A stretch of 64,000 nucleotides of DNA, taken from NCBI RefSeq assembly GCF_011038845.1, contig NZ_JAAKDW010000014.1, forward strand, positions 1-64,000. Reading direction: 5' to 3'. Every line of letters begins with the position of its first letter. The stretch's first letter is position 1. The translations under genes and the position numbers were made by a program. This DNA comes from Enterococcus sp. ZJ1622 (lineage in GTDB: Bacteria; Bacillota; Bacilli; Lactobacillales; Enterococcaceae). Of this stretch, positions 18,448 to 34,951 are shown piece after piece. The notes below the pieces were generated by a model. That model did no database searches. It had not been told where the DNA came from and saw only the letters and a program-made list of their open reading frames with translations.

Positions 18448-18588
18448 TGCAGTTTCCATGATTGATGAGCGATTGTCATACATTGGATCATGCCTCATTA
18501 TTTTCTCAGCGATTTCATAAAATTTTATTAGGAGACTGGCGATTCTGCAAGTTTTGTCGCATAATGAATGGATAAAAGGAGGAAGCAA
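18448..18588 (+). other. Leader region of the BNR gene
   Basis: A/T-rich gap between the terminator at 18445 and the start codon at 18589. It ends in a strong AAAGGAGG ribosome site (18575-18582). I see no convincing promoter pair and no other feature. Confidence 0.4.
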
Positions 18589-20151
18589 ATGGATCAAGAA
18601 TTATTGATTATCGAATTGATTTCTGCAAAACCAAAAATCATCAAGATGGCAAAAAGAACAGCAAAAGCCGAGACCGTCAAACTGCTAAGCTGGATCGTAC
18701 TAAGTAGTTTGTTTTTCTTCGGTGTTGCTTCTCTTGTCTATCGAATGATGAAAGAGACAGTTCACTCGATTCAAGCAGGCCAGAGACTGAGTGATCTCTA
18801 TCATGTTTCATGGCTCATCGGTGGTGGATTGGTGTTTTTTCTAAGTCTGCTGCTTATTCTCTCATGGGTAAAATATGTTCGTTTAACTCGGCATTTTGAC
18901 CAATGGATCAGTCAACGTGCCGATTATTTTTTACATACTTCGCCTGTTTTTCATGATGATCGCTATCTATATTTTGAAAAAACTGTAAGAAACCGGGCCT
19001 TTCGCATAGAAAAAAGTGACTGCCAGCTGTTATTGCATTCACTCGATAACGAACCTATCTATATAGGACAAAGAAAATCAGGATTCGGCCTAAGCTCGAT
19101 TCACATCTTTTTACAAGAACCTGAGTTGAAAAAAGTGACCAGTACACATGGCTATTCAATCCAGCCTAAAGTAAGGATTGGCGCACTGCTCGCGGGAATC
19201 TGTTTGATCGGTCTAGCCGGTGTGGTTTATTACGGAAAATATGGCAGTCCAGGAATGTCTTCTTCCAGAATGAACGCGATGACACATATGTCGATGCCTT
19301 CTACTAGTAGTGCAACTGCAGAACGGACCACAAGTGAAGGTCTGCTGGCTGATCCGAAGCAAACCGTCCAATTCACTACCCAGCAAGTCAATGACCTTCA
19401 ACTAGACAAAACTGCACAGAACCTTTATATGACAACGGATAGTGGTAAAACCTGGACATTTGTCCCTATTGCTTCGGACTGGCTACGCTTTGGTGATTAT
19501 ACCCTGACAAGCGGGACGGTCCCAGAAGGATTTTGGATGGACAAGACCTATGATGTATCCGCAGACTTTTCGTGGTTTATTTATTCTTCTGATAACGAGA
19601 ATATATGGTTGCTGAGCTCTAGAGACAACGGAAAGACCTGGCAAAAATCCCTCGTTTCTCAACATGCGCATAATGTTCGCTATCGAAAAGCGAACTTTTT
19701 TGATGGCAGCGGAGTGCTCGTTTATTCTACGGATAGCGGAATGTCGGCGGAGACTTTGCATATCTATACGACTCGAGATGAAGGGGAGACGTGGACGAAT
19801 AGTTGAAGTACGACGATCACACAGCCGGTTCAAAACGTCAGCTTCGTCACGTCCTCTCTTGGTTTTGTTTCTACACGTGAGCAGCTTTATTATACTAATG
19901 ACGGAGGACGCTCCTTCAAAGAAGCAATCGTATCCATCCCCGAAGATTATCAGACAGGTGGCTTGGATTTGTTCCAATCACCGAATGAAGTGACTCAAAC
20001 AAGTGCCAATACATTAGAGACAAAATTCTATTTGCTGAAAAAAGGGCCCATCGATGCAGGGAAAATGTTTGCTTGTCTCTTTAGGTCGACTGACAATGGT
20101 GAAACATGGCAGTTTGTCCAGCAGCTTTCTCAGGTGGAGCAGGGGGATTGA
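18589..20151 (+). pseudogene. Membrane-anchored BNR/Asp-box repeat protein, interrupted by an in-frame TGA
   Basis: From ATG 18589 (AAAGGAGG 6 nt upstream) the frame runs to a TGA at 19804-19806 and then continues in the same frame, without any other stop, to TGA 20149-20151: 520 codons in all. The first 200 residues hold two membrane helices (about 28-50 and 70-93). A third helix at about 200-216 leads to a Ser/Thr/Met-rich linker and an outer domain of BNR (Asp-box) repeats. These read TTDSGKTW, SRDNGKTW and TTRDEGETW before the stop, and YTNDGGRSF and STDNGETW after it, so the stop splits one repeat domain. A TCA-to-TGA change would explain it. A product of 405 residues may still be made. 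BNR repeats occur in sialidases and other beta-propellers; the catalytic role is unknown. Confidence 0.8.
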
Positions 20152-20159: not shown

Positions 20160-20403
20160 GAGGTTGTGAAAAAGCTGTCCTGCATCAAGCAGTAAGAACA
20201 AATAGATAAAAACAGCTCCTCATGTTTTTCATCTGTTTGAGCTTAGTGCTGCAGATGCAAGCTTTTGAACACCGTTTAGAGAGGTTGTAAGCCTGCCGTT
20301 TAACTCTGAGGCACAAGGAACAATTTCAACAAACAGCTTCTCATGTTTGATGAATATTGTGACTTGTGCCCGAGGAGTTGGCAGGGGAACACCGTTTATT
20401 CGG
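20160..20403 (+). repeat. Two tandem hairpin repeat units (A and B)
   Basis: Unit A (20160-20279) and unit B (20281-20403) both start GAGGTTGT and end GAACACCGTTTA. Unit A folds as GCAGTAAG-AA-CAAATAGAT.. / ..ATCTGTTTG-AG-CTTAGTGC with loop AGCTCCTCAT at 20214-20223. Unit B folds as GGCACAAG-GA-ACAAT.. / ..ATTGT-GA-CTTGTGCC with loop AGCTTCTCAT at 20335-20344. Loop, flanks and a purine-purine internal loop are shared while stem sequences differ. Unit B is almost identical to the unit at 32849-32968. The pair lies downstream of the broken BNR gene and ends in a terminator. Confidence 0.8.
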
Positions 20404-20404
20404 A

Positions 20405-20441
20405 AAAGGGGCAGTGACAGTACTTTTGTCACTGCCCCTTT
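20405..20441 (+). terminator. Terminator module of the repeat cluster
   Basis: AAAGGGGCAGTGAC (20405-20418) and GTCACTGCCCCTTT (20428-20441) form a perfect 14-bp stem with loop AGTACTTTT. It has the same GTGAC..CTTTTGTCAC core as the module at 2130-2160. Confidence 0.85.
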
Positions 20442-20730
20442 GTTGTTGACAACATCAACTTTCATTTTATTTATTTTTTTTAATAAAAAGAAAAATGTTG
20501 TTTGCTTTAATATTATTATACGATAAGCTGATTTTAGAAATAGGTTTTTATGTTAGGAAGAATATGAAAGCGCTATCTTTGGATGGTAGATATGAAATGA
20601 ATGTTTGGAGTTAGGTAAACAAAAATATACGGTGGAAGAGGAAAGGATATTTCAATAAATGTTTAGTAATGGTGTATAATATGAGCTCTTGTTCGTGATA
20701 TTTGTATTTTTCCACTAGTATATTTTTAAT
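20442..20730 (+). other. A/T-rich gap without a gene
   Basis: No credible frame is present on either strand; the longest ATG frames are under 20 codons and lack ribosome sites. A TATAAT at 20675-20680 with TTCAAT 18 bp upstream (20651-20656) could start a plus-strand RNA of about 90 nt ending at the hairpin at 20731-20777, but this is speculative. Confidence 0.4.
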
Positions 20731-20777
20731 AAAAGCTATCGCGTATGTAGTATTCCTACATACGCGATAGCTTTTTT
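20731..20777. terminator. Perfect 20-bp stem bidirectional terminator
   Basis: AAAAGCTATCGCGTATGTAG (20731-20750) is the exact inverse complement of 20756-20775, with loop TATTC and T/A runs at both ends. It terminates the minus-strand ABC operon, whose last stop codon is at 20794, and any rightward transcript. Confidence 0.9.
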
Positions 20778-20793
20778 GCAATTGATAATATCC

Positions 20794-22578
20794 CTATGCT
20801 GTTTGGAACTGACTATTATAAAGGTTCGCATATAACGTAGGCGCTTGAAGCAGTTCGTCGTGCGTCCCTTTTTCAATTATGTCACCATTCTTCATCACTA
20901 ATATCATATCGGCCTTTTCGATCGTAGACAAACGATGGGCAATCACGAAGCTAGTGCGGTTTTGTGTTACGGCATCCATGGCTTGCTGGATAAGTGCCTC
21001 TGTCCGTGTATCCACACTAGAAGTAGCTTCATCTAGAATAACAACAGGCGGATCTGCTAATATGACACGTGCAATCGTTAGCAGCTGTTGCTGGCCTTGA
21101 GACAGTGTCCCGTTTTCACTGGAAATCAACGTATCATAACCGTTAGGAAGCGTACGGATAAAATGATCGCATTGGGCGATTTTAGCAGCATGGATGATTT
21201 CTTCTCGTGAAGCATCCATTTTTCCATAAGCGATGTTATCGGCAATACTTCCTTCGAATAGCCACGTATTCTGCAATACCATCCCAAAGCAACGGCGAAG
21301 TTCGCCGCGGGATAATCGAGTGATGTCGATATCATCAAATTCGATTTTTCCTTTGTTGATTGCATAAAAGCGCATCAGTAGATTGACTAGTGTGGTTTTT
21401 CCAGCACCAGTTGGACCAACGATCGCAATCGTTTGCTTCGGTTTGACAGAAAAGCTGACTTGCTTCATCAGTAACTGGTTGGGTGAATAGCCGAACTGCA
21501 CATTTTTGAAGGCGACTTTCCCTTTTGGCTCCGTCAGCATCGCTGTTTCCGTTTTATCAGGTGATTCTTCTGGTTCATCCAGTATGTCGAATATCCGATC
21601 GATCGCAGCCATCGCCGACTGGATCGAATTGATGACGTAAGAAGCAGTAGAGATCGGCTCGGAAATCTGATTGATATACTGCAAATAAGCTTGTAAGAAA
21701 CCAATCGTGATCCCGCCAGAAAGAACAAGGAAGGCACCCATGACTGCACTGAGAATGAACGCAAGCTGGTTGATGAAACGGATCGCTGGATAAATCGCAA
21801 AATTCATGAATTGGGCACGTAAAAATGCCTGTGATTGCTTTTTGCTGACTTCCTGGATGGTTTGTTCTGCTTGCTCTTGCTGGTTGAACGTTTTGATCAC
21901 GAGATTTCCTGCTAAGATCTCTTCCATCTGATTGTTCAATTCGCCAAGTTCGTACTGGTTCTGATCTGAAATGTGCTTATTTTTATTCGCGATCTTCGTA
22001 GTCATAAACGAACTGATCCCAATCAGTAAAAGGACTAGGAACGACAGTTTGATATCGATATAAAAAAGCATCGCTCCAGCTGCGAGAATCGTCACGATGG
22101 AAGTAAAGAACTGGTTGATCCCTGTCAGTAAAACTTGTGAAAGCTGATTGAGACCAGTCGTCGTACGACTGATGATATCTCCTACTTGGTGGTGATCAAA
22201 AAAAGACATCGGCAGTTTTTTGAACTTTTTCGTCATTTCTTTTCGAACACGTAACGTGATTCTTTCGCTTAACGAGGCCATTGTCCGCTCTTGGATAAAT
22301 GAGGTGATACTACTAAAGGTCGAGCAAAGTACAAGTAAAAGAACAGGGAAAAGAAGCACTTCGCGAATATCAGCGAATGACAGCTGACTGATACCGACAT
22401 CCTTTATCCTTGCCAAGAGCTGATCGATCCCGATCCCCATAATCATCGGCATGGACACGATCAGCAAATTGCCGATCAAGCTGCATAAAAAGAGGCCGTA
22501 AAAAAAGCGATGTTCCGGCTGTATCATTTTCCAGAAACGGAAGAGACTTTGAGTGTTCGCTTTTTGTTTCATATTCAT
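20794..22578 (-). CDS. ABC exporter half-transporter with the canonical ATP site residues
   Basis: This 594-residue protein has an N-terminal six-helix exporter domain (about residues 20-330) and a C-terminal ATPase domain with Walker A IVGPTGAGKTTL, Walker B VVILDEATSSVD with the catalytic glutamate, and the switch histidine in FVIAHRLST. Its signature motif is LSQGQQQ instead of LSGGQ. Paired with its neighbour's degenerate Walker B, it fits an asymmetric heterodimer of the BmrCD/TM287-288 type. Start ATG overlaps the upstream partner's stop by 4 nt. The layout with a divergent MerR gene resembles the chlorhexidine-induced efrEF-chlR locus of E. faecalis; identity as EfrE or EfrF is not assigned. 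Confidence 0.88.
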   Translation of the reverse strand: MNMKQKANTQSLFRFWKMIQPEHRFFYGLFLCSLIGNLLIVSMPMIMGIGIDQLLARIKDVGISQLSFADIREVLLFPVLLLVLCSTFSSITSFIQERTMASLSERITLRVRKEMTKKFKKLPMSFFDHHQVGDIISRTTTGLNQLSQVLLTGINQFFTSIVTILAAGAMLFYIDIKLSFLVLLLIGISSFMTTKIANKNKHISDQNQYELGELNNQMEEILAGNLVIKTFNQQEQAEQTIQEVSKKQSQAFLRAQFMNFAIYPAIRFINQLAFILSAVMGAFLVLSGGITIGFLQAYLQYINQISEPISTASYVINSIQSAMAAIDRIFDILDEPEESPDKTETAMLTEPKGKVAFKNVQFGYSPNQLLMKQVSFSVKPKQTIAIVGPTGAGKTTLVNLLMRFYAINKGKIEFDDIDITRLSRGELRRCFGMVLQNTWLFEGSIADNIAYGKMDASREEIIHAAKIAQCDHFIRTLPNGYDTLISSENGTLSQGQQQLLTIARVILADPPVVILDEATSSVDTRTEALIQQAMDAVTQNRTSFVIAHRLSTIEKADMILVMKNGDIIEKGTHDELLQAPTLYANLYNSQFQTA

Positions 22579-24314
22579 TTTTTGATCCCTTCTTTCTCTA
22601 TTCCTTGTGACTGTGCAAACTCTTGATAGGTTTGGCAGTCATTCATCAATTCCTCGTGGGTTCCTTGTCCCACGATTTTTCCTTCCTCTAAAACTAAGAT
22701 ATGATCGGCATGCATGATCGTACTGAGACGCTGTGCGACGATGATGAGCGTCTTGTCTGACATTTGCTGGTGCAATGCTGTTCGTAATGCAGCATCCGTT
22801 TGATAATCCAACGCAGAGAAGCTGTCATCAAAAAGATAGATTTCTGCTGGTTTGACCAATGCCCGCGCAATACATATCCGCTGTTTTTGTCCGCCAGAAT
22901 AATTTGAACCACTTTGAGCCACAAAACTGTTCAGTCCATCCGGCAACTCTTCGATAAATTCAGAAAGCTGTGCGATTTTGATTGCTTTTTCCAATTCTTC
23001 TTTTGTGGCTTGCTCATTGCCCATCTGCAAGTTGCTTAAGATCGTTCCGCTAAATAGAAATGCCTTTTGCGGGATATAGCTGATGAGTGAGCGAATCTGA
23101 GCTTGTTTTAGCTGCGTGACTGGGACATCAGCGAATCTGATTTGTCCTTCTGTCACATCACTGATCCGTAAAAGAAGCTTCGCTAATGTACTTTTCCCTG
23201 AACCAGTTCCGCCTACGATCGCTGTGGTTTTTCCTTTTGGTATCGTGAAATTGAGATCCTGCAGTACAGGATCTGCGGTTTTCGTATACTGGAACGAGAC
23301 ATTGTCAAACGTAACGAGTGCTTTTTGATCAAGCGAAAGTGGCTGTTCAGTCAGTGATTCTTCATTGATTTCGATCTCTGCGTCCATGACTTCTTCAATC
23401 CGGCGCAATGAAGCGATCGATCGTGGGATCACGACAAGAACCATTGCCGAAATCATCAAATAGGCGAGCGTCAGCATCGAGTATTCGACGATAGCAGTAA
23501 CGACACCGATTTGCAGCGTACCTTTACCGACAAGCTGTCCGCCAAACCAAAGGATCGAAGCATAGACGACTCCCATGAGCAAAAAGGCGATCGGAGTGAC
23601 CCATGCGAAAATGCGGTTTACTTTGATCATTTGTTCAGCGTATGCAGCAAATGTCTGATTGGTACGGTTTTCTTCATAATCCTGATTATCGAATGCACGG
23701 ATCATATTGATCCCAGTGAAGAATTCTCTCAGTGTAGTCGTGATACGATCCATCTTAGGCTGGATACTCAAGGATAAAGGCGTCCCTCGTTTCATCAGAT
23801 AATAGATGATCCCAGCGTACACGACCACAGAAATCAACGTGATCCAAGTAAGTGTCATCGAGTAACGGAACATCAGGACGATCGTAAAGAGACAAATGAC
23901 TGGTGCAGGAAGGATCATTTGACAAAACAACACGATCATTTGCTGGACGTTATCCACGTCATTCGTCATCCTAGTCAATAAAGAAGCTGAGCCGAACTGA
24001 TTGATATCTTTCATCGACAACTTCTGGAATTTCCTGAAATACTTTTCTCTCGTTTGTAACCCGAAAGCTGCTGCGACAGCTGCGGAGTAGTAACTGGATG
24101 CGACAGCTGTCACGGTGCCGAATAATGCGACGCCGAGCATCTCTAGTCCGATCGTGTAGATCCTTTCTGGTTCTTTGCTTGAGATCCCAGTATCGATCAA
24201 ATTGGCCACTAATTTAGGAACGCCTAGCGTACCGATGATCTGTAGACAGACAAAAGTAAAAGTAAGCAAGACGAGTCCTTTGTTTTTCTTCAAGAATTGT
24301 TTTAATACGTTCAT
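22575..24314 (-). CDS. ABC exporter half-transporter with degenerate ATP site
   Basis: First gene of the minus-strand exporter operon, 579 residues: six-helix membrane domain (about 15-300), then an ATPase domain with Walker A IVGGTGSGKSTL and a standard signature YSGGQKQR. Walker B reads IYLFDDSFSALD with Asp in place of the catalytic Glu, and the switch histidine is Gln (IIVAQRLST). This complements the partner encoded at 20794-22578: one working ATP site would combine the partner's Walker motifs with this signature. A GGAGGAG site precedes ATG 24314. Transcription starts at the MerR-type promoter at 24347-24377. The likely role is drug or cationic-biocide export; the substrate is not shown by the sequence. 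Confidence 0.88.
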   Translation of the reverse strand: MNVLKQFLKKNKGLVLLTFTFVCLQIIGTLGVPKLVANLIDTGISSKEPERIYTIGLEMLGVALFGTVTAVASSYYSAAVAAAFGLQTREKYFRKFQKLSMKDINQFGSASLLTRMTNDVDNVQQMIVLFCQMILPAPVICLFTIVLMFRYSMTLTWITLISVVVYAGIIYYLMKRGTPLSLSIQPKMDRITTTLREFFTGINMIRAFDNQDYEENRTNQTFAAYAEQMIKVNRIFAWVTPIAFLLMGVVYASILWFGGQLVGKGTLQIGVVTAIVEYSMLTLAYLMISAMVLVVIPRSIASLRRIEEVMDAEIEINEESLTEQPLSLDQKALVTFDNVSFQYTKTADPVLQDLNFTIPKGKTTAIVGGTGSGKSTLAKLLLRISDVTEGQIRFADVPVTQLKQAQIRSLISYIPQKAFLFSGTILSNLQMGNEQATKEELEKAIKIAQLSEFIEELPDGLNSFVAQSGSNYSGGQKQRICIARALVKPAEIYLFDDSFSALDYQTDAALRTALHQQMSDKTLIIVAQRLSTIMHADHILVLEEGKIVGQGTHEELMNDCQTYQEFAQSQGIEKEGIKK

Positions 24315-24346
24315 ATGAACTCCTCCTTTTTTCCTGACAATTAGAA

Positions 24347-24377
24347 AGTCTACACCTTAAAGCTACTTGAAGGTCAA
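24347..24377 (-). promoter_or_regulatory. MerR-type promoter and operator of the ABC exporter
   Basis: On the minus strand TTGACC (plus 24372-24377) and TAGACT (plus 24347-24352) are separated by 19 bp, the over-long spacer typical of MerR-activated promoters. The spacer contains a 21-bp dyad (plus 24354-24374): ACCTT-C-AAG-TAG-CTT-T-AAGGT, with a single non-complementary pair. This is where the divergently encoded MerR protein should bind and untwist the promoter. Confidence 0.75.
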
Positions 24378-24395
24378 TAGAAAAAAAGCTAAACT
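24367..24395 (+). promoter_or_regulatory. Promoter of the MerR gene
   Basis: TTGAAG (24367-24372), 17 bp, TAAACT (24390-24395). It overlaps the right half of the MerR dyad, so binding would probably also repress the regulator gene itself (inference). Confidence 0.5.
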
Positions 24396-24414
24396 GGAAG
24401 AAGAGGTGAGAAAA

Positions 24415-25194
24415 ATGGAAAAGATGTATACGATTGGTGAAGTATCGGAGCTTTTGAACCTGCCGAAATCGACGATCCGTTATTGGGATGAACAAGGACT
24501 GATCAGCTCAAGTAGACATGAAGACAACGGCTACCGTTTATTCGATATTGATGATATCTTCAAGCTTTATGATATTGATTTTTATCGTAATCTGGACATC
24601 CCGATCAAACAGATGAAAGATCTTTATGGCAAGACATTGAGTGATTTGTACGAAACACTTGATGAAACGGAAAAAAGGATCAGAAACGAGATCGCTGTGA
24701 TGAAAAAGAAACATCAGGAGATCGACTTTCGTAAAAAACAGCTGAAACTGATGATCGATACGAAGCAAAATGAGTTTCCTGTAGAAAGCATCCCGTTTGA
24801 TCGGATCATCTCGTCTGATTTTGAGAACTTCATGGAGATCAAGATGTTCCTGGCGAATTATTCGAGTTTCGGGATCATCAGCACCACGTCTTCCAATGCA
24901 GAAACAGCCTATGGATTATGTATTGGAAAAGCGCAGGAACATTTACCTGTCGAAGAAGCAGAAGTGATTTGGGAGAAAAACGAATCAGCTGTTTACCGGC
25001 GCTTTTTATTGAAAGTCGAAATGAATCGTACAGAAAACAATAATATAAAAGAAGTGCGTGATTTGCTGAAAACACAAGGAGTTGAAACAGGGCAAGTCAT
25101 AGGCCAGTATTTGCTGACGAATACGACAAAAGAAAACATCAGCTATGAATATTATCATGCCTGGATCGAGACAAAAAAAGCGGCGGATCGTTAA
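24415..25194 (+). CDS. MerR-family transcriptional regulator
   Basis: MerR proteins activate over-spaced promoters when they bind a ligand. The 259-residue product starts MEKMYTIGEVSELLNLPKS, the MerR winged helix-turn-helix (residues 4-70, with IRYWDEQGLISS and NGYRLF). A long dimerisation helix (about 75-125, rich in Glu and Lys) and a C-terminal half of about 120 residues follow, large enough to be an effector-binding domain. I start at ATG 24415 behind GAGGTGAG rather than 16 codons upstream. Divergence from the ABC exporter and the operator between them mark it as the local regulator. It resembles ChlR next to efrEF in E. faecalis by position and family. Confidence 0.87.
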   Translation: MEKMYTIGEVSELLNLPKSTIRYWDEQGLISSSRHEDNGYRLFDIDDIFKLYDIDFYRNLDIPIKQMKDLYGKTLSDLYETLDETEKRIRNEIAVMKKKHQEIDFRKKQLKLMIDTKQNEFPVESIPFDRIISSDFENFMEIKMFLANYSSFGIISTTSSNAETAYGLCIGKAQEHLPVEEAEVIWEKNESAVYRRFLLKVEMNRTENNNIKEVRDLLKTQGVETGQVIGQYLLTNTTKENISYEYYHAWIETKKAADR

Positions 25195-25265
25195 AAACGA
25201 GGAATACTGGAGAAATGAATATGAGTATGGTAGAAAAATGAATAGCTATAAATGTTCAGGAAAGA

Positions 25266-25293
25266 TTGATACGATCCTATGCTATGTTATAAT
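25266..25293 (+). promoter_or_regulatory. Promoter of the esterase gene
   Basis: TTGATA (25266-25271), 16 bp, TATAAT (25288-25293), with a TGT extension before the -10. The start codon is 35 bp further on. Confidence 0.65.
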
Positions 25294-25327
25294 CGTAATG
25301 CTTGAAAATAATCATTGAGGGAGCAGT

Positions 25328-26347
25328 ATGAAAAAGAAAATCATCAAATTTATCAGCTGGTTCTTAGGCATCGTCCTTGGAATCGCACTGGCAATCTTCA
25401 TTGCTTTTCAAATTTCGCCTAGACCAGGGGCGCTTTTGATCAACCATATGTTTGCTGGAGAAGTCCAGATCACAGATAAACAAACATTCGATCAATCAAA
25501 AAAACAGGTCAGCAGACAAAAAGATCTGTCCTACCAATCCACATTCGAAGACAGTACCTTTGATATTTATTCACCAAAAAATGTGAAGGGACCAGTCCCT
25601 GTCCTAGTTTGGGTTCACGGCGGCGGATTTGTTGGCGGAGACAAATCGGGGATGGAAGAATTTGCGACTCGCTTAGCAGCAGATGCAAACATTGCGATCG
25701 TTGCGATGAACTATGAGTTAGCTCCTGATTCACATTATCCCAACCAAGTGTTGCAGGTGGATGACTTGATCAAAGATATCAAAGCCAAGCAGAAAAAATA
25801 TCCGATGCTTGATCTCAATCAGGTATTCATCGGTGGAGATAGTGCAGGTGCTCAGATCGCTTTGCAATATGCAGCGATCCAGACGAACGATAGCTATGCC
25901 AAACAAATGGATATGGCGCAGACACTGGAAGACGGGACGATCAAAGGAACGATCTCTTACTGCGGTCCTGTCGATCTGAAGCTGACCGCACAGCAGCATT
26001 CGGATGATAGATTCATGAAATTTTTCGTAAAAACTGTTGCGTGGTCATTGATCGGTACGAAAGATTGGAAGAATAGTCCGCTACTGGAAGAAGCAAGCGT
26101 AGCAGATCACGTCAATCAGGCATTTCCGCCAACCTATATCACAGACGGGAATGCGTATTCTTTCCAAGAACAAGGGCAAGCATTAGAAAAAAGATTGCGA
26201 GCATTGAACGTACCTGTACAGTCATTGTTTTATTCAGATACGAAAAAAGAAATCACACACGAATATCAATTCGATTATTCGACAAAAGAAGCGCAAAACT
26301 GCTATCAGCAGACGGTCGCGTTCTTAAAGGAACAGTTAACTGATTAA
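25328..26347 (+). CDS. Membrane-anchored alpha/beta hydrolase (HSL-type esterase)
   Basis: The 339-residue protein has one N-terminal hydrophobic segment (about residues 8-29) after a KKK start, so it is probably an outward-facing anchored enzyme. The rest is an alpha/beta hydrolase of the hormone-sensitive-lipase type: oxyanion motif HGGG at 97-100 and nucleophile Ser172 in GGDSAGAQ; a C-terminal THEYQFD segment supplies the likely catalytic His. Such enzymes hydrolyse carboxyl esters, and the natural substrate cannot be read from the sequence. GGGAG precedes ATG 25328. The gene is alone and converges on the LacI gene, with only 9 bp between stops and no clear terminator. Confidence 0.82.
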   Translation: MKKKIIKFISWFLGIVLGIALAIFIAFQISPRPGALLINHMFAGEVQITDKQTFDQSKKQVSRQKDLSYQSTFEDSTFDIYSPKNVKGPVPVLVWVHGGGFVGGDKSGMEEFATRLAADANIAIVAMNYELAPDSHYPNQVLQVDDLIKDIKAKQKKYPMLDLNQVFIGGDSAGAQIALQYAAIQTNDSYAKQMDMAQTLEDGTIKGTISYCGPVDLKLTAQQHSDDRFMKFFVKTVAWSLIGTKDWKNSPLLEEASVADHVNQAFPPTYITDGNAYSFQEQGQALEKRLRALNVPVQSLFYSDTKKEITHEYQFDYSTKEAQNCYQQTVAFLKEQLTD

Positions 26348-26356
26348 CCAAGGACT

Positions 26357-27394
26357 CTAGCGTCTCCCATCATTTGGTATGAAGCTTTCTCTTATGATCA
26401 GTTTAGTGGGGTAGGTCACGATCAAGGGCTCGTCTCGAATGCCGTCGATCCGCTCAAGGGCAAGTCTCACAGCTGTTTTTCCCAGTAGCTTTGCATTGAT
26501 CTTGACGGTTGTCAAACCTGGGGAAAGCTTAGCAGCTGCTTCGATATTGTCAAAGCTTGCCAGGACGATATCGGTTCCGATCGCAATCCCCATATTTTTC
26601 AACGCCTGATAAACGCCCATAGCCATAGGGTCGCTTCCGACGAGGATTGCTGTCGGGAGCGGCTTTTTGTTTTCCTTCAGTAACGCATAGGTGAGAAGCT
26701 CCGCACTTTCTTTTGTCCATTCACCTAATTGATAAGTGATATAGTCATCTAAGTGATGATCGGCCATGAAATGAAGATAAGCTCGTATCCGTTTTTCATT
26801 CGTAGTGATCGTTTTTTTGCCAAATTCGTTTAGATCTACTTGATAGCCGCCGATATAGGCGATGCGCTGATGCCCATTCGCAAGGAAAGCTTCCAAAACC
26901 GTATTCGTCATCCTTTCCAAATCCCCATAGACCATATCGACTTCTTGTTGGATATCAGGATTGTCTACTACGACGAGGTTGTTGTTTTGTTTGAGCAGAT
27001 CATTGATCGAATCTTTTGTGACCGTCCCTACCACGATGAGTGCGCCTAACTGATCCAGATCTTTCCACTCCTTAGGCTGATCCGAAAGATTATAGAGACG
27101 GTTCATCCCCAGATGCAAACGTCGTGCTTCTTCTTCAAGGCCTAAGCGAAGTTCTTTATAGTATACATCTTGTTCTTCAGCGGATTTGCTTATCGTAGAG
27201 ATCACACCGATAGAGGGAGTCCGTTTTTTTGTATACTTCCGTTTTTTGAGATCATAATCCAACATCGCAGCAGCTTCAAAAATCCGCTCTCTGGTTGATG
27301 GGGCGACACTGATGGTTTTATCATTGTTCAACACACGAGAAACAGCTGCTGGGGAGACATTGGCTTTACGAGCGACATCTCTGATTCCGACCAT
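26357..27394 (-). CDS. LacI/GalR-family repressor of the galactoside operon
   Basis: The 345-residue product starts MVGIRDVARKANVSPAAVS, a canonical LacI helix-turn-helix with hinge helix by residue 60. A periplasmic-binding-protein-like sugar domain follows (SIGVISTIS; AYIGGYQVDL; TAILVGSDPMAMGVYQAL; VLASFDNIEAA). ATG 27394 is chosen over a GTG four codons upstream because that GTG abuts the GGAG ribosome site. It is divergent from the alpha-galactosidase gene, and an 11-bp GTTTAGTAAAC palindrome lies in that gene's promoter spacer, the expected place for its operator. The inducer is probably galactose or a galactoside (inference). Confidence 0.88.
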   Translation of the reverse strand: MVGIRDVARKANVSPAAVSRVLNNDKTISVAPSTRERIFEAAAMLDYDLKKRKYTKKRTPSIGVISTISKSAEEQDVYYKELRLGLEEEARRLHLGMNRLYNLSDQPKEWKDLDQLGALIVVGTVTKDSINDLLKQNNNLVVVDNPDIQQEVDMVYGDLERMTNTVLEAFLANGHQRIAYIGGYQVDLNEFGKKTITTNEKRIRAYLHFMADHHLDDYITYQLGEWTKESAELLTYALLKENKKPLPTAILVGSDPMAMGVYQALKNMGIAIGTDIVLASFDNIEAAAKLSPGLTTVKINAKLLGKTAVRLALERIDGIRDEPLIVTYPTKLIIRESFIPNDGRR

Positions 27395-27428
27395 TATTCC
27401 ACACACTCCTTAAAAATAAAATTTTCTA

Positions 27429-27458
27429 TTGACAAGATTGTTTAGTAAACAGTATACA
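27429..27458 (+). promoter_or_regulatory. Galactoside operon promoter with LacI-type operator
   Basis: TTGACA (27429-27434), 18-bp spacer, TATACA (27453-27458). The palindrome GTTTAGTAAAC (27440-27450) sits inside the spacer, so a bound repressor would block RNA polymerase. Confidence 0.7.
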
Positions 27459-27471
27459 GGAATCAGGAAAT

Positions 27472-27487
27472 AAGTAAACGGTTTCTA
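27472..27487 (+). promoter_or_regulatory. Candidate cre (CcpA) site of the galactoside operon
   Basis: AAGTAAACGGTTTCTA matches the catabolite-responsive-element consensus at all but two positions, with the central CG at 27479-27480. It lies just downstream of the -10, a repressing position. It might instead be a second LacI-type operator (AAAC-G-GTTT core). Confidence 0.5.
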
Positions 27488-27506
27488 TCGTTGAAGGAGT
27501 GGGATG

Positions 27507-29759
27507 ATGACAATCGAAAGCTTAGGAAAACAAGAACATCAAGCAGACCCGTTGGTTATTTTTGACAAGAAAGCAAATGTCTTCCATTTGTCGAATAAAG
27601 AAATTTCCTACTTGATGAAGATCGAAGAAGACGGTATTTTATCCCATATTTATTTTGGGAAAAAAGTCAGCAATTATCAGGATACGAAAAATTATCCAAG
27701 AAGAGATCGAGGATTCTCAGGGAATATCCCGCTGAATCCAGACCGTACATTGTCAAAAGATACGATGCCCCAAGAATATTCCGCACACGGCGGGATGGAT
27801 TATCGGATTCCTGCGACGATCATTCAGAGAAGCAATGGGTCTTCGCTTCTCGATTTACGCTACGACCGACATATCTTGCTTCAGGGAAAGCCAAAATTAC
27901 AAGGATTGCCACAAACTTATGTCTTGGATGAAAAAGAAGCACAAACACTTATCGTTACTTTGAAAGATCGGGAGACCGCAATCTACGTTGATTTGTTCTA
28001 TACGATTTATGCAGATCGGGCGGTTCTTACTCGTTCAGTCGCGATCCGAAACGAGACTGAGTCAGCGATCCGGATAAACAAAGCTGCTTCATTTCAAATC
28101 GATTTCAGCCATTCCGGCAGATTCAGCGAACTGATTGCTTTACCAGGAGCTCATGTAAAGGAACGCCAGATTTCCAGACAGACGATCACATCAGGCGTAA
28201 AATCGATTGAAAGTCGTCGCGGATCAAGCAGTCATCAGATGAACAATTTCATTGCTCTGGTCCACGAACATACGACAGAATCTGCGGGGGAAGCAATTGG
28301 TGTTCAATTCGTTTATTCCGGGAATCATTCTTTTGAGATCGAAAAAGATCAGATCAGTCAGATTCGGGTGATCGGCGGGATCAACAGCTACCAATTCTCT
28401 TGGGAACTTGTTTCAGGCGAAGTTTTCCAAACGCCGGAAATGATTTTATCCTATTCCAGCCAGGGATTGAATAAAATGAGTCAGATCCATCACGACTTGT
28501 TGCGAGAGTGTGTAGCGAGAGGATCTTATCAATATGAAGAACGCCCTATTCTGATCAACAACTGGGAAGCGACTTATTTTGATTTCACTTCCCAAAAGAT
28601 CAAGGCACTTGTCGATGAAGCAAAAACTCTTGGTATCGAACTATTTGTATTGGATGACGGCTGGTTTGGAAAAAGAGATTCGGATGATTCTTCATTAGGT
28701 GACTGGTTCGAATATGACGGGAAACTAAGCGATGGTCTGAAAGGAATCGCAGATTATGTACATGGAAGAGGCCTGAAATTCGGTTTGTGGATCGAACCGG
28801 AAATGATCTCGATCCATTCGGAACTGTATCGAAAGCACTCGGATTATTTGATGCAGGAACCAAGTAGAACGCCAGCTGCTTCAAGGTCGCAATATGTACT
28901 TGATTTTTCGAGAAAAGACGTTCGGGAGAATATCGAAAAACAAATACGCAGGATTTTAGATAGTGTGCCTATCGATTACATCAAATGGGATATGAACCGC
29001 TCACTTTCAGACAACTATTCTCCTTCTCTGAACGAACAAAATCAAGGAGAAGTCATGCACCGATATATGCTAGGGCTATATGACATGCTGGAAAAGCTGA
29101 CAGCGGATTATCCTGAGATTCTTTGGGAGGGCTGTTCAGGAGGCGGCGGTCGATTCGATGCAGGGATCTTGTATTATATGCCTCAATCGTGGACAAGTGA
29201 TAATACAGATGCGGTGGAGCGGTTGGGCATCCAATACGGGACGAGCCTTGCTTATCCTATCTCATCGATCACGGCACATGTCTCTGCTGTTCCTAATCAC
29301 CAAAGTGGCAGAATGACTAGCTTGAAAACGCGTGGCGATGTAGCGATGAGCGGTGTATTAGGCTATGAACTCGATCTGACAAAACTGTCCAAGCAGGAAA
29401 AAGAAGAGATGAAAGAACAAATCGATTTTTATCAGGAAATTCGTCAGACAGTCCAATTCGGTGACTTCTACAGACTTTCAAGCCCATTTGAGCAAAATGC
29501 GGTGGCTTGGCTGTTCGTTTCGAAAGATAAAGAAGAAGCAATAGTATTCTTAGGGCGGATACTCGCTTCTGCGCAGCCAGTGTTTGAAGAGGTCCGTCTG
29601 GCAGGATTGGATGAGCAGGCTTTGTACCAGGAAAAAAGGACGAAGCGGGTATTTTCTGGATCAGAATTGATGCATGTCGGGCTTTATTATCCAGATTTTT
29701 ATGGCGATTTCCAAACGGAACTGCTTTATTTACAAAAGATAAAAGGAGAGGAAGAATAA
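27507..29759 (+). CDS. aga: Alpha-galactosidase, GH36 family
   Basis: This enzyme removes terminal alpha-galactose from melibiose, raffinose and related sugars in the cytoplasm. The 750-residue protein has the GH36 layout: an N-terminal beta-sandwich (about 1-330), then the barrel with VLDDGWFGKRD, the nucleophile Asp495 in YIKWDMNR and the acid/base Asp565 in SWTSDNTDA, 70 residues apart as in known GH36 enzymes. There is no signal peptide. Two adjacent ATGs exist (27504, 27507); 27507 gives better spacing to AAGGAG. lacL starts two bases after its stop, so it is the first gene of an aga-lacL-lacM operon. Confidence 0.92.
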   Translation: MTIESLGKQEHQADPLVIFDKKANVFHLSNKEISYLMKIEEDGILSHIYFGKKVSNYQDTKNYPRRDRGFSGNIPLNPDRTLSKDTMPQEYSAHGGMDYRIPATIIQRSNGSSLLDLRYDRHILLQGKPKLQGLPQTYVLDEKEAQTLIVTLKDRETAIYVDLFYTIYADRAVLTRSVAIRNETESAIRINKAASFQIDFSHSGRFSELIALPGAHVKERQISRQTITSGVKSIESRRGSSSHQMNNFIALVHEHTTESAGEAIGVQFVYSGNHSFEIEKDQISQIRVIGGINSYQFSWELVSGEVFQTPEMILSYSSQGLNKMSQIHHDLLRECVARGSYQYEERPILINNWEATYFDFTSQKIKALVDEAKTLGIELFVLDDGWFGKRDSDDSSLGDWFEYDGKLSDGLKGIADYVHGRGLKFGLWIEPEMISIHSELYRKHSDYLMQEPSRTPAASRSQYVLDFSRKDVRENIEKQIRRILDSVPIDYIKWDMNRSLSDNYSPSLNEQNQGEVMHRYMLGLYDMLEKLTADYPEILWEGCSGGGGRFDAGILYYMPQSWTSDNTDAVERLGIQYGTSLAYPISSITAHVSAVPNHQSGRMTSLKTRGDVAMSGVLGYELDLTKLSKQEKEEMKEQIDFYQEIRQTVQFGDFYRLSSPFEQNAVAWLFVSKDKEEAIVFLGRILASAQPVFEEVRLAGLDEQALYQEKRTKRVFSGSELMHVGLYYPDFYGDFQTELLYLQKIKGEEE

Positions 29760-29760
29760 A

Positions 29761-31642
29761 ATGAACCCATGTATCGAATGGTTAGATGACCCTCAGGTAT
29801 TTCGAGTCAATCAGCTAGCCGCACATAGTGATCACTTTTTTTATGCTTCAAGAGAAGAAGAAAAGGCGAAGAAAAGCTCGCGCATCCAGTCATTGGATGG
29901 CCGGTGGCTCTTTAGATTTTCGCCAAATGCGAAGGAACGACCCCGCCGTTTCTTTGAAAAAGAGTTCGATTCCAGCGACTTTGACACGATCAGTGTTCCC
30001 GGGCATATCGAATTGGCCGGTTATGACAAGATCCATTATATCAATACGATGTATCCGTGGGAGGGACATGAATTCCGCCGGCCAGCTTTTACAACAGCAG
30101 AGGAACAAGCAGCAAAAGGGATGTTCTCAGAAGCAGAATACAATCCAGTGGGGTCTTATCTGACTACTTTCCGATTAGAAAAAGGAATGCAGAAAAAGAA
30201 GATCTCGATTTGCTTCGCTGGTGTAGAACAAGCGATGTTCGTGTGGCTCAATGGTCATTTCATTGGTTATGCGGAAGATTCTTTCACCCCATCCGAGTTT
30301 GATTTGACCCCCGTATTTGGAAGAAGAGAATCTATTGGCAGTCGAAGTGCATAAACGCAGTACCGCCGCGTTTTTAGAAGATCAGGATTTTTTCCGGTTT
30401 TTCGGTATTTTTCGAGAAGTCGTTTTAGTCGCACGAGGAAACAATCATTTGGAAGATCTTTGGCTGAAGCCTAAGCTAGATGATCAATACAGAAATGGCA
30501 CGCTGGAACTAGACTTGACATTCGAAAATGCGATCGCAGGCAGTCAACTCATGGTGAATATTTTAGATCCCAAAGGCCAGCAGATCTATCGAGACAACAT
30601 CATGTTAGAACCAGCAATGTCTGTCCATATCGATTTAGGTCAAGTCACGCGTTGGGATCATAATGAACCAAACCTCTATACGATCGAACTAGAGACAGTC
30701 GAAGAAGGGCGAACCACTGAATTTGTCAGTTATCCATTCGGGTTTCGGACAATCGAGATCAGGAACAAAACGATATTGTTAAATGGGAAAAGAATGATCA
30801 TCAACGGTGTGAATCGGCACGAATGGAATCCGGAGACCGGACGAGCGATCACACAGGAAGACATGGAACGGGACTTAGCGTTGATCAGATCCGCACATAT
30901 CAACGGCGTCCGCACTTCCCATTACCCAAATCAGATTCCTTGGTATTATTTGTGTGATCAAGCAGGTATCCATGTCATGGCAGAAACCAATCTGGAATCT
31001 CATGGCTCATGGCAGAAAATGGGTGCAATCGAACCATCCTACAATGTACCTGGGGCGATCCCGGAATGGCTGGCAGTCGTTCTTGATCGGGCAAAGACAA
31101 ATTTTGAAACATTGAAAAACCATACGAGTATCCTTTTTTGGTCTTTGGGCAATGAATCTTATGCGGAAGAAAACATCAGAAAAATGAATGATTATTTCAA
31201 AGAAAAAGATCCGAGTCGCTTAGTTCATTATGAAGGGAATTTCCCTAATCCGGCATTTGAAGATTCGATCTCTGATGTGAAAAGCTGTATGTACGCGCCA
31301 CCTCAAGAAATCCGGGAATATCTCGAAAAGGATGGGACAAAACCGTTCATTCTATGTGAATATATGCATGATATGGGCAATTCTTTAGGGGGCATGGATT
31401 CTTATATGAATCTCTTAGACGAATACGAGAACTATCAGGGCGGTTACATCTGGGACTTCAAAGATCAGGCAATCTTAGTGACAGATGAACTCACTGGGCG
31501 CAAAGTGATGCGCTACGGCGGCGATTTCGATGACAAACCAAGTGATTATGAGTTTTCAGGAAACGGGATCGTATTTGCAGATGGACAGGAAAAACCAGCG
31601 TTTCAGGAGGTAAGGTATTATTATGGAAAATACAGGAACTAA
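29761..31642 (+). pseudogene. lacL: Beta-galactosidase large subunit LacL, frameshifted
   Basis: LacL is the catalytic GH2 subunit of the LacL-LacM beta-galactosidase. The frame from ATG 29761 keeps family sequence up to FDLTP and then goes out of phase to a stop at 30354. The family sequence resumes one base out of frame as YLEEENLLAVEVHKRS and continues to 31642. The junction is a run of five C at 30308-30312. Removing one C restores a continuous 626-residue protein, the usual LacL length. Both catalytic glutamates lie beyond the shift (SLGNES near 31150; LCEYMHDMGNS near 31360), so the first fragment is inactive. A true mutation and a homopolymer sequencing error are equally possible from sequence alone. 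Confidence 0.88.
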
Positions 31643-32597
31643 ACAATCAGCGAAAACTCAACAAATCCGGCTCATTTTCGGCGACTGTACATTCGGCATC
31701 AAAGGGGAAGGATTCCATTATATCTTTTCTTATACAAGAGGTGGGCTCGAATCATTGAACAAAAACGGCAAGGAGTGGCTGTATCGGGAAACCTTACCAA
31801 CCTTCTGGCGTGCATTGACCGATAATGACAGAGGGAATGGATTTGGTTTCCAGTCTGCTATGTGGCTAGGCGCAGGGATGTATCAGAAAGTCAAAAATAT
31901 CCGGGTCTTCGTCAACGAACGACCAATCGAAATGCCGATCGCGCCAGTCAATAATCAGTATACTAGCCAAGAATATGCTGAAACTGCTGAGATCATCTTT
32001 TCGCTTGAGATCAATACTGTACCGAAAACAACGGTGGATGTTGCTTATCAAGTGAACGGTTCAGGTGAGATCTTTGTGAAAATGAACTATCACGGGAAAA
32101 AAGGCTTGCCGGAACTGCCGCTTCTTGGTTTAAGGTTCATCATGCCGACCCAAGCAACCTATTTTGAATATGAAGGACTTTCCGGTGAAACCTACCCAGA
32201 TCGGATGGCTGGCGGGGCCGAAGGGATTTATAAAGTCGAAGGTCTTCCTGTCCCGCCGTATCTTGTGCCGCAAGACTGCGGTGTGCACATGAAAACCAAA
32301 TGGCTCAAGATCACTCGAGATACTACGTTGAACAACGCAGATACGAGCAAAGAGGAATTCTCCTTACGTTTTGAACAAGTGAATGGCGAATTTGCTTTTT
32401 CGGCTTTACCGTTCAAAGCAGAAGAACTGGAAAATGCGACACATATCGAAGAGCTTCCGCCAGAAAGACGGACAGTACTCGTGATGATGGCAAAAGTAAG
32501 AGGTGTCGGCGGGATCGATAGCTGGGGAGCAGACGTTGAAGAAGCTTACCACATCAATGCAGAAGAAGATCATGAATTCTGCTTTCTGATCAAATAA
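31623..32597 (+). CDS. lacM: Beta-galactosidase small subunit LacM
   Basis: LacM matches the C-terminal part of single-chain GH2 beta-galactosidases (domain 5) and is needed to complete the active site of LacL. The 324-residue protein contains the conserved WRALTDNDRGNGFG and the LPLLGLRFIMP segments and ends in the HINAEEDHEF region. It overlaps the end of lacL by 20 bp in another frame, the usual arrangement in lactic acid bacteria, which implies translational coupling. It is intact here even though lacL carries a frameshift. Confidence 0.9.
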   Translation: MENTGTKQSAKTQQIRLIFGDCTFGIKGEGFHYIFSYTRGGLESLNKNGKEWLYRETLPTFWRALTDNDRGNGFGFQSAMWLGAGMYQKVKNIRVFVNERPIEMPIAPVNNQYTSQEYAETAEIIFSLEINTVPKTTVDVAYQVNGSGEIFVKMNYHGKKGLPELPLLGLRFIMPTQATYFEYEGLSGETYPDRMAGGAEGIYKVEGLPVPPYLVPQDCGVHMKTKWLKITRDTTLNNADTSKEEFSLRFEQVNGEFAFSALPFKAEELENATHIEELPPERRTVLVMMAKVRGVGGIDSWGADVEEAYHINAEEDHEFCFLIK

Positions 32598-32602
32598 AAA
32601 AA

Positions 32603-33230
32603 GAGATTGTGACAGAAGTGGGCAGCTTCAAGAAATAAGAAGAAATTGACGAAAATTGCTTCTCAAATTTTTGTGGAATTTCGGCTTATTTTCGAAGAAG
32701 TTACTTCTGGAACACCGTGAATCAGAGGTTGTAAAAAAGCTGCTCTGCATCAAGCAGTAAGAACAATCAGATAAAAATAGCTTTCCATATTTTTCATCTG
32801 ATTGGGCTTAGTGCCGTAGATGCAAGCTTTTGAACACCGTTTAGTGGAGAGGTCGTAAGTCTGACTTTTCACTTTGAGGCACAAGGAACAATTTCAAAAA
32901 ACAGCTTCTCATGTTTGATGAATATTGTGACTTGTGCCCGAGGAGTTGGCAGGAGAACACCGGTTATCGAGAGGTCGTAAAAAAGCTGTCCTGCATCAAG
33001 TAATAAGAACAGACAAACAAAAATAGTTCTCCATATTTTTCGTTTGGCTGGACTTATTACCGCAGATGCAAGCTTTTGAACACCGTTTAATGGAAAGGTC
33101 GTAAAAGAGATGTTCAGCCTTGAGCAATAAGAAGCGATTTTGAAAAATAGCTCTCCATATTTTGCATTTTTATGAGCGAATATCGAGGAGCTGAGACAAG
33201 ATTTTTTTCTCAGTTCCTCGATTTTTTCTT
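32603..33230 (+). repeat. Five tandem hairpin repeat units between lacM and the sensor kinase gene
   Basis: Units start at about 32603, 32725, 32849, 32971 and 33094, each about 120 bp, with starts GAGGTTGTAA or GAGGTCGTAA and ends GAACACCG. Apical loops lie at 32657-32666, 32779-32788, 32903-32912, 33025-33034 and 33149-33158 (AGYTYYYCAT-like; the first is TGCTTCTCAA). Stems pair in different sequences: GAAATT/AATTTC in unit 1, CAATCAGAT/ATCTGATTG in unit 2, GGCACAAG/CTTGTGCC in unit 3, TAATAAG/CTTATTA with CAAAC/GTTTG in unit 4. Unit 5 pairs poorly and runs into the terminator. No coding frame is present. Confidence 0.8.
33184..33227. terminator. Bidirectional terminator between lacM and the sensor kinase gene
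   Basis: CGAGGA-G-CTGAGA (33184-33196) pairs with TCTCAG-T-TCCTCG (33208-33220), followed by ATTTTTTC. The minus-strand gene ends at 33236, so both converging transcripts can use it. Its GAG..GACAAGA..CTC pattern resembles the module at 2130-2160. Confidence 0.8.
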
Positions 33231-33235
33231 ATCTT

Positions 33236-34951
33236 TTATTTGCTGATCAAAGGCAATCTGATCGTCACTGTCGTTCCGATCCCGACAAGTGATTGGATCG
33301 ACAAGCCGTAGTCTTCGCCATACATCAAACGGATCCGCTCATCTACGTGACTGATCCCGATCCCTGAAAAAGTATTGGTTCTGCTGCCAGTTTTGGTCGG
33401 ATCGAAGCCGTCCCCGTTATCGACTACCTCAAAGAGCAAGTCATGCTTGCTGATTCTCCCATAGATTGTGATGAATCCTTTTGTTTTCGTTTGAAAAGCA
33501 TGTAGATAGGCATTTTCGACGATCGGTTGGATGATCATATTCGGCAGATAAAGGGAATACAATTCAGTTGGGACCACGACTTTGGCAGGGATTGTTTCGC
33601 CATAGCGAAGAGTCAGGATATGGAGATAGTTCTCGACGTTTTTCAGTTCTTCTTCCACTGAGATCTCTTCTTTCTTATGGCCGATCGTATGTCTCAACAG
33701 ATCAGTGAAACGATCGATGCCCTGGATCGCCTTTTCGTTTTCCTGCTGCCAGATCAGAAATTTAAAACTGGTCAGTGTGTTATACATAAAATGAGGTTGG
33801 ATCTGTGCTTGCATCGCTTGTATTTCTAGCGTCCGTTTCTTTTTCTCATTTTGAAGCGATTCTGTGTAATACCAATCGAGATCAGTCAATAACTGATTGA
33901 GCGTATTTCCCAACAGCTTGATCTCGTGGGTGCCTTGTACAGGGATCTGGGCGTTTTTAGGATCTTCTTTGACTCCTTTCAATGAATGGATCAGCTGATA
34001 GATCGATTTTGTATGACGATTCAGATAGATGAAGACGAAGAAACCGGCAAACAAAAGCGTCACAACGTTATATAAAATGATCGGTAGAACGATCGCCATT
34101 TGATTGACTAATGATGCCAGATCCACTTTGCTGATCAAAGCTGAATTCTGACGATATAATGCAAGACGCGTCCGTTTGTTTTCTTCAATCATTTTTGTTT
34201 CGTTCTCAGCGAGTAGCGCCAAATCTTCAGAGAAGGCACCAATCTTTGAGGGATCGTTCGAAGTGAAAATCTGCTGGTCTTCGTTGACAAAATCGATTTG
34301 GACGAGCGTTGGATCGACGATGTCATTGAACAAACCAGCCAATTGGTGCGAAGTGACTGCAATCACGCCGTAACCATAAGTGCGATTCATGGAAGTAGTG
34401 AGCTTTTTGATAAAAAAGACGCTGGGCGAATGCTTTTCTCGCGTCGTCAAGCCAAAGGGCACAAAAACCATTTGGGTAGAAGCTGATGTTGCATTTACTT
34501 TTTTCAAGAGATCTAGCTGGAAAAAATCTGTAGCAGTCATCGCTGCAATCATGTCATTTCCTACGAATAGACGACCATTTTCTCCAAAAATCATCAAATC
34601 ATAATCGATAGTAGGGGATATGCCATTAAATGACTCATTCATTCGCTGAATCGCGATCAATTGATCGGTCTGTTGTGCTATGTGTTGCAGCGCATCGGTA
34701 AAATAATCTTCCACAGCCGGATTTCGATCTATTTGAGCAAGGGTGTTTTCTATTTTATCATTGAGCATCTCAAAATCATGCTGGATTTTTTTCAAGGAAA
34801 CGGCATTCGATTGATCGAAATAATCGATATAACTTTTTTTCGAATGATGGTAGATGAACATGGAAACAATCACTGCCTGTAAACACAGGGCAGCTAAGAC
34901 AACAATCAGAAGTTTCGTGAAAAGCTCGTATTCTCTCATCAGCTGCTTCAT
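33236..34951 (-). CDS. Sensor histidine kinase, YesM/LytS-type HisK family
   Basis: The 571-residue kinase has a membrane helix at about residues 12-34, an extracellular sensing region of about 240 residues, a second helix at about 283-310, a HAMP-like linker, and a cytoplasmic kinase part. The phosphorylated His387 lies in QIQPHFMYNTL, the ATP-binding N box is IIQPIVENAYLHAF, and the G boxes are DNGDGFD and GIGISHVDERIRLMYG. Its start overlaps the response-regulator stop by 4 nt. Kinases of this type paired with AraC-type regulators usually respond to carbohydrates and control a neighbouring sugar ABC importer, here the divergent operon at 36665-39810. Confidence 0.88.
   Translation of the reverse strand: MKQLMREYELFTKLLIVVLAALCLQAVIVSMFIYHHSKKSYIDYFDQSNAVSLKKIQHDFEMLNDKIENTLAQIDRNPAVEDYFTDALQHIAQQTDQLIAIQRMNESFNGISPTIDYDLMIFGENGRLFVGNDMIAAMTATDFFQLDLLKKVNATSASTQMVFVPFGLTTREKHSPSVFFIKKLTTSMNRTYGYGVIAVTSHQLAGLFNDIVDPTLVQIDFVNEDQQIFTSNDPSKIGAFSEDLALLAENETKMIEENKRTRLALYRQNSALISKVDLASLVNQMAIVLPIILYNVVTLLFAGFFVFIYLNRHTKSIYQLIHSLKGVKEDPKNAQIPVQGTHEIKLLGNTLNQLLTDLDWYYTESLQNEKKKRTLEIQAMQAQIQPHFMYNTLTSFKFLIWQQENEKAIQGIDRFTDLLRHTIGHKKEEISVEEELKNVENYLHILTLRYGETIPAKVVVPTELYSLYLPNMIIQPIVENAYLHAFQTKTKGFITIYGRISKHDLLFEVVDNGDGFDPTKTGSRTNTFSGIGISHVDERIRLMYGEDYGLSIQSLVGIGTTVTIRLPLISK

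Follow-up and report, generated by a model that had tools for sequence, protein, structure and literature searches.

Structured intergenic repeats of Enterococcus probably form part of small stem-loop-replacing mobile elements amplified into mosaic arrays

We analyzed a family of intergenic hairpin repeats in a 64,000-nt stretch of DNA (the window) from Enterococcus sp. ZJ1622 (contig NZ_JAAKDW010000014.1), whose 3.02 Mb genome is available in 55 contigs. An earlier note on this DNA had described seven repeat units in the window. We found strong support that the folded shape of the unit is preserved by paired mutations. With a probability of roughly 70%, each unit is the left portion of a small non-autonomous mobile element akin to EFAR and Efa-1; such elements replace stem-loops and would here have been amplified into mosaic arrays. 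This kind of mobile element is known in E. faecalis; the mosaic-array form in the E. faecium group is a variant of it, and the papers searched described neither the strand-specific structural selection nor the order-wide spread.

A structure-blind MAFFT alignment of the seven window units yielded 35 consensus pairs, 21 of which carried at least one double compensatory change, and in a structure-blind alignment of 27 units double changes occurred at 28 of 38 pairs. Six of the seven window units folded better than their shuffled versions (z −3.7 to −7.9); the fold of the seventh (33094-33205) was not above shuffles (z −0.95, with 41 of 200 shuffles as good). Larger alignments of 147 and 79 units, as well as a tree-aware count, were fitted to a model, and the two structure-blind alignments agree with them. 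In the set of 147 units, all distinct and all from this genome, pairing held in 96.2% of cells, and the covariation score reached 0.589 against 0.182 in shuffled and at most 0.100 in slid alignments. Two of the five measures were unremarkable in this set, namely the pairs with double changes (25 vs. 23.9 in shuffles, 13 of 500 as high) and the further pair types (73 vs. 76.6). The other alignment comprised 79 distinct units from other genomes and records, drawn from 47 loci that are a subset of the loci collected, and no shuffle reached any of its five measures: double changes were present at 34 of 38 pairs (24.4 shuffled), further pair types numbered 104 (76.9 shuffled), and the score was 0.559 (0.186 shuffled, at most 0.120 slid). 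By parsimony on a tree of these 79 units, 187 double changes kept the pair, compared with a mean of 12.8 and a maximum of 27 in 40 random re-pairings of the same columns, and 93 changes broke it, compared with a mean of 130. The apical loop, approximately G(C/T)TnnnCA, is conserved but not, as had been proposed, invariant, with its best columns conserved in 71 to 78 of 80. The two-by-two internal loop beside AAG/CTT was confirmed by eye in the six intact units, but its purine-purine composition does not hold family-wide (for example, CC stands opposite GA in locus L077).

Single changes away from Watson-Crick pairing, counted in clusters at 82%, distinguished the strands. Within stems, G-U outnumbered A-C by 38 to 14 in this genome and by 34 to 7 in other genomes, whereas the equivalent transitions outside stems stood at 37:38 and 39:50 (Fisher p = 0.010 and 2.5e-5; p = 0.004 to 0.011 at other thresholds), although the count could favor G-U to some extent, since the model used to fit the alignments gives that pair a higher score than A-C. 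An excess confined to stems indicates that one strand, the plus strand, is selected, and the plus-strand fold was more stable by 7.1 kcal/mol on average (190 units). The plus-strand fold is therefore itself under selection, in a manner compatible with RNA and single-stranded DNA alike. Together with the structure-blind alignments, the 79 foreign units and the tree-aware count, this strand test bears out the proposal of the earlier note that selection acts on a single-stranded fold and that the units are not decaying simple repeats. Since antisense copies are nearly as common as sense copies in co-directional gaps and fold with equal stability (45 vs. 55 units, p = 0.24), a strand-specific fold alone is no proof of RNA. 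During mobility, the plus-strand fold may be recognized as a hairpin of either nucleic acid.

All seven units in the window lie on the plus strand, at the positions and with the borders, loop and paired stem changes originally described. They form two arrays, which we scored with a model, R1, built from 27 units. Array 1 (20160-20398) consists of unit 1 at 20160..20278 (subtype A, GAGGTTGTGA...GAACACCGTTTA, 118.8 bits) and unit 2 at 20281..20398 (subtype B, 124.2 bits). Array 2 (32603-33205) comprises four intact units, namely unit 3 at 32603..32721 (subtype C, a type resembling the units of other genera, 108.6 bits), unit 4 at 32725..32843 (subtype A, 121.0 bits), unit 5 at 32849..32966 (subtype B, 104.2 bits) and unit 6 at 32971..33089 (subtype A, 118.7 bits), followed by the truncated unit 7 (33094..33205). 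Unit 7 is D-like, lacks the GAACACC end and the unit fold, and is absent from the R1 matches; its 3′ arm passes into a terminator hairpin on the plus strand at 33184..33220 (CGAGGAGCTGAGACAAG...CTCAGTTCCTCG, with a T-run to about 33228, by eye). By eye, units 1, 4 and 6, units 2 and 5, unit 3, and unit 7 represent four different subtypes, and they are not copies of one recent duplication. The terminator that each unit was thought to contain proved instead to be a separate hairpin after the last unit; in array 1 it lies on the plus strand at 20408..20438, is introduced by TTTATTCGGAAAA and reads GGGGCAGTGACAGTACTTTTGTCACTGCCCC followed by a T-run. Array 2 begins 5-6 bp past the stop of the beta-galactosidase small chain gene (31623..32597, plus strand, Pfam PF02929), and a convergent sensor histidine kinase gene lies downstream (33236..34951, minus strand, Pfam PF06580). 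Upstream of array 1, the gene at 18568-20151 gave a weak Sortilin-Vps10 match under the Pfam cut-off and has an in-frame stop at 19804-19806, after which the frame stays open as far as a stop codon 8 bases short of unit 1.

A search pattern that fixes both borders matched 177 times in the 3.02 Mb genome and not once when read backwards, which excludes a chance origin. R1 returned at least 150 matches in the whole genome, and 243, partial ones included, in the 500,268 bases made up of the window and 69 stretches chosen around arrays. The family numbers roughly two hundred copies in this Enterococcus; 91 arrays were found, including the two in the window, and 60 of them are multi-unit. Arrays close with an end module, in which the last unit is followed by TTTATTCGGAAAAA and then by a hairpin near RGGAGCTGTGACAAGACTTTTGTCACAGCTCC. 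By a strict count of the 91 array ends, 36 ran directly into TTTATTCG and the hairpin core, 11 had the module with no recognized core, 37 continued into a degenerate unit (six of these with the module within 800 bases), and seven were other, three of which (L110, L133 and L152) appeared module-like by eye. A unit followed by an end module was also seen in a substantial share of the elements inspected from other genera. In many arrays, the terminal hairpin scored as an intrinsic terminator in at least one direction, and in some it did so in neither. The former could be taken to mean that the hairpins are merely transcription terminators sharing sequence through gene conversion, but the units end in GAACACCG with no plus-strand T-run, a terminator needs neither the conserved loop nor the internal loops, and mosaic arrays precede the terminator. 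This explanation, already disfavored, is very improbable.

We next consider where the arrays lie, with genes called as long open frames without annotation. The 86 array-bearing gene gaps comprised 39 convergent, 40 co-directional and 7 divergent ones, compared with 23, 86 and 30 among 139 gaps without arrays in the same stretches, so that convergent gaps were enriched (p = 6e-6). Among the 66 arrays with a same-strand upstream gene, a set that by definition includes the 39 convergent pairs, 53 started no more than 45 bp past the upstream stop codon. Co-directional gaps with close genes held 25 sense and 18 antisense arrays (p = 0.36), that is, no orientation preference, and none of the 91 arrays mixed strands. 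Arrays thus sit mostly at gene 3′ ends and occur in both orientations. The mobile element would there stand where relatives have a native terminator hairpin and bring its own terminator, which may keep an insertion tolerable in either orientation. Alternatively, the units could be RNA useful to the host, as 3′ untranslated region structures that guard the upstream mRNA or are excised as small RNAs, having spread by host benefit. Starts near stop codons, plus-strand selection and the conserved loop and internal loops would all suit such a role. The even orientation in co-directional gaps, the equal stability of antisense copies and the turnover of positions between species speak against it, and we regard it as unlikely. 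On the first two of these grounds, we rejected a cis-acting mRNA stabilizer as the selected role.

EFAR elements (Venditti et al. 2007) are reportedly mostly 170 bp long and modular, with two stem-loops, and are said to insert into stem-loops, most of the target being lost in the process. In an E. faecalis record of 747,526 bases, R1 found 10 copies, eight of which were one unit plus a second hairpin of about 175 bp in total; one further copy (L321) was a longer form, and another (L319) was left out of the reading. These elements run from AGAGGTCGGGACAGAACCG through a hairpin to CCGCCGTTTATCAGTTTTT and then GAGCGTGGAGC...GTCCCACGCTCTTTTT, and the two copies checked against annotation lie between genes. 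The record, NZ_CP143580.1, is labelled a plasmid but looks chromosomal, as it carries murQ, udk and a superoxide dismutase gene. Petrillo et al. 2008 (PMC2267715) describe the E. faecalis repeat Efa-1 as 163 bp long, intergenic and present in 65 copies (18 in parentheses), with a pair of adjacent stem-loops. The family studied here differs in that multiple copies of the first hairpin, belonging to at least seven subtypes, make up mosaic arrays, and it is about four times denser than in E. faecalis (177 exact matches in 3.02 Mb vs. 10 matches by model in 0.75 Mb). A complete element would be composed of AAAAA-GAGG(T/C)(T/C)G(T/G/A)GACA, the unit itself as a long hairpin of about 120 nt, TTTATTCGGAAAAA or a similar sequence, and a second hairpin, GAGGCTGGGACA-loop-TGTCCCAGCCTC, by virtue of which its two ends would be inverted repeats. 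Small intergenic structured repeats that resemble these by description include ERIC as well as BOX and RUP of Streptococcus pneumoniae, the latter two named in a list in PMC2267715.

Separately, five units of about 173 bp (L121 2267-2439, L157 2194-2366, L096 7194-7366, L130 2547-2719 and L092 2270-2442) contain an additional conserved segment, about 55-60 bp long, CCAAGTAGGTA...CATCGAATC...TTCTTCGTG, which folds as an added hairpin, and a similar insert was seen by eye in the long E. faecalis unit L321 and in L167. The units of several species thus appear to harbor a nested second structured module.

To compare sites between species, we scanned species representatives for QueA (NCBIfam name); the closest were E. 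durans and E. lactis (95%), which places this genome near the E. faecium/hirae/durans group. The queA site holds five units here but is free of units in E. durans, E. lactis, E. villorum and E. mundtii. Among the 80 queA loci taken from other records, 75 had no match; L167 carried units directly after queA, L181 had a weak reversed match nearby, and L162, L193 and L197 had matches in other parts of the stretch. Forty E. lactis stretches around well-scoring matches contained 41 arrays, about 10 of which share a site with an array here by flank matches and a threshold set by eye, and unit order and subtypes at the shared sites are mostly different from those in this genome. At five sites with an element in E. 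lactis and no unit here, we observed by eye a terminator-like hairpin in this genome at three (B, C and E) and a solo terminal hairpin with a decayed unit at one (D), and the last (A) was ambiguous.

The composition of the arrays was analyzed with seven subtypes assigned from seeds of our choice, which left 4 of the 195 units in this genome and 14 of the 72 from E. lactis without a subtype. Like neighbors made up only 4 of 99 adjacent pairs in this genome, compared with an expectation of 17.5 (none of 5000 permutations gave so low a count), and 0 of 20 in E. lactis, against 5.0 expected (p = 0.003). This rarity led us to reject simple tandem duplication. In multi-unit arrays, subtype C stood first in 11 of 14 cases (p = 0.001) and subtype G in 7 of 8 (p = 0.004). 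Subtype order and the scarcity of like neighbors suggest polar assembly or recombinational loss of like neighbors. In the E. faecium group, the left hairpin would have diversified into at least seven subtypes joined head-to-tail in mosaic arrays.

The IS1182 family is a candidate source of mobility. For IS1272, a member of this family, transposition by stem-loop replacement is reported (PMC5678879, PMC4923244). Our elements would share with the family the terminator or stem-loop targets and the replacement of the target hairpin; they resemble it in their inverted repeats for one repeat type, and differ in encoding no protein and in being far shorter. IS1182-family genes were detected in 11 of 15 genomes of the genus, and this genome has an intact copy named IS1182 by NCBIfam. 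Their inverted repeats were legible at 13 loci, 11 of type CAGAYTGTAGACAAAG and 2, both in genome G005, of type GAGAGTGGGACAATAG; a relic in this genome also bears the GAGAGTGGGACAATAG type. As an observation on the family itself, the copies at L282, L285, L287, L295 and L303 have an inverted copy of the target terminator hairpin on either side, resembling the duplication pathway discussed for IS1272. The terminal inverted repeats of our elements resemble one of the two repeat types in the genus: with arms and register picked by hand, terminal-hairpin arms matched the IS1182-family repeat GAGAGTGGGACAATAGTC at 14 and 15 of 18 positions in E. faecalis and at 15 in E. lactis; the two arms in genome G094 matched at 15 and 12, and the consensus here at 12. 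We infer from this resemblance that an IS1182-family transposase acting in trans may move the elements.

That manual choice of arms weighs against the mobile-element reading, and so do several other findings. Unit starts are less similar to the repeat (12 of 18 here and 10 of 18 in E. faecalis), the commoner CAGAYTGTAGACAAAG type, at 11 of 13 loci, resembles the elements less, and several of those 11 loci duplicate the target hairpin with no replacement. No IS1182-family gene was detected in four of the 15 genomes (G001, G003, G010 and G013), which hold 53 to 128 units each. A DDE transposase working on double-stranded DNA leaves the one-strand conservation of an interior hairpin unexplained, and insertion into a palindromic terminal hairpin should yield mixed-strand arrays, of which there are 0 among the 60 multi-unit arrays. 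At queA, the five-unit array abuts the native terminator, which is also present in E. lactis and has not been replaced, the sites shared with E. lactis mean that many arrays could be old and immobile, and none of the genomes compared captured an insertion event itself. The likeness of the E. faecalis members to EFAR and Efa-1 is one of size and layout (about 175 bp, a unit plus a second hairpin).

In another reading, the units would be REP-like and owe their movement to a Y1/HUH transposase of the RAYT type, which would read the hairpin in single-stranded DNA form. REP elements and BIMEs with RAYT genes likewise occur as hundreds of intergenic hairpins in mosaic arrays, and the strand-specific fold, a bulged pyrimidine in the basal stem and the lack of orientation preference would agree with such a mechanism. 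REP elements differ from our units in length, border motifs and the terminal terminator. The four Y1 matches in this genome comprise one ordinary-looking IS200, one broken copy and two divergent small proteins without the second HUH histidine, and the 2-3 kb around them contained no complete unit, only one isolated 9-base border match. Because a single RAYT gene flanked by repeats was not found in this genome, we rejected membership in this group, and a REP-like origin seems improbable. At L032 1501-1842 and L033 1501-1836, a small Y1-like protein whose HUH motif is degenerate lies, by eye, beside a repeat-rich, surface-protein-like frame.

We then examined the distribution of the family. R1 matched in all 15 genomes of the genus, with 34 to at least 150 matches each, and 12 of the 15 held 100 or more units. 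Under stricter filters, matches occurred in 81 of 105 Enterococcaceae genomes, representing 14 of 17 genera. Across the Lactobacillales, again with stricter filters, 76 of 395 genomes from 23 of 80 genera had matches, 53 of these 76 being Enterococcaceae. Among 20 named species, 11 had a match: E. durans and E. lactis (at least 150 each), E. villorum (128), E. mundtii (110), E. italicus (53), E. dispar (52), Vagococcus fluvialis (31), E. cecorum (7), E. sulfureus (6), E. pallens (3) and E. asini (1). The nine without a match included Tetragenococcus halophilus, Pediococcus acidilactici and Streptococcus peroris. An element on plasmids of Lactiplantibacillus and Lacticaseibacillus (L036 3001-3120 and L071 1501-1675) shares 99.4% identity with one from genome G094, and in the L. 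plantarum plasmid Lp16F the element lies directly past aspT; it was likely transferred together with the aspartate genes. A further 143 records named Listeria phage LM 4-11-1 or 4-14-1 match the units (e.g., OR846741.1 and OR848927.1), and some Listeria-phage-named records match window genes at about 72-82% identity. As these look like Enterococcus contamination, we set aside the Listeria phage and Klebsiella records as evidence of host range.

At its gathering score, Rfam gave no match in the window or in six other loci, and the best matches in a relaxed search of 32500-33300 were only unrelated microRNA families; Rfam relatives were rejected on these grounds. A more tentative proposal is that the units constitute an uncatalogued, Lactobacillales-wide class of structured RNA (or single-stranded DNA) carried on terminator-replacing elements. 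The plus-strand hairpin with its G(C/T)TnnnCA loop might be bound by a trans-acting partner, and mobility would then depend on a folded nucleic acid although the element ends belong to a DDE-type system; we consider this possible, though doubtful. At least one E. faecium small RNA screen (PMC5593968) dropped candidates found 10 or more times elsewhere in the genome, and through such a filter these elements would fall out of RNA catalogues. Our searches of the literature on enterococcal repeats returned nothing specific to E. faecium and no account of strand-specific structural selection or order-wide spread, and two transcriptome papers (PMC7724050 and PMC10117718) yielded nothing about these repeats with the terms used. 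Arrays occupy at least 91 gene gaps in this genome, although nothing in Rfam matched them. The family lends itself to testing stem-loop-replacing transposition and the reason why mobile DNA would keep a strand-specific fold, and it shapes terminators throughout the enterococci.

Finally, downstream of queA across Enterococcus species, a hairpin is followed by a conserved, non-coding-looking stretch, CTCGGAAGGAATCAAATAAACAGAA...CTTGTTTTCGTTACATC (about 12010-12300 in L123 and 1610-1750 in L160). Rfam had no match for it in L123 or L160, and it is possibly an antisense small RNA gene.

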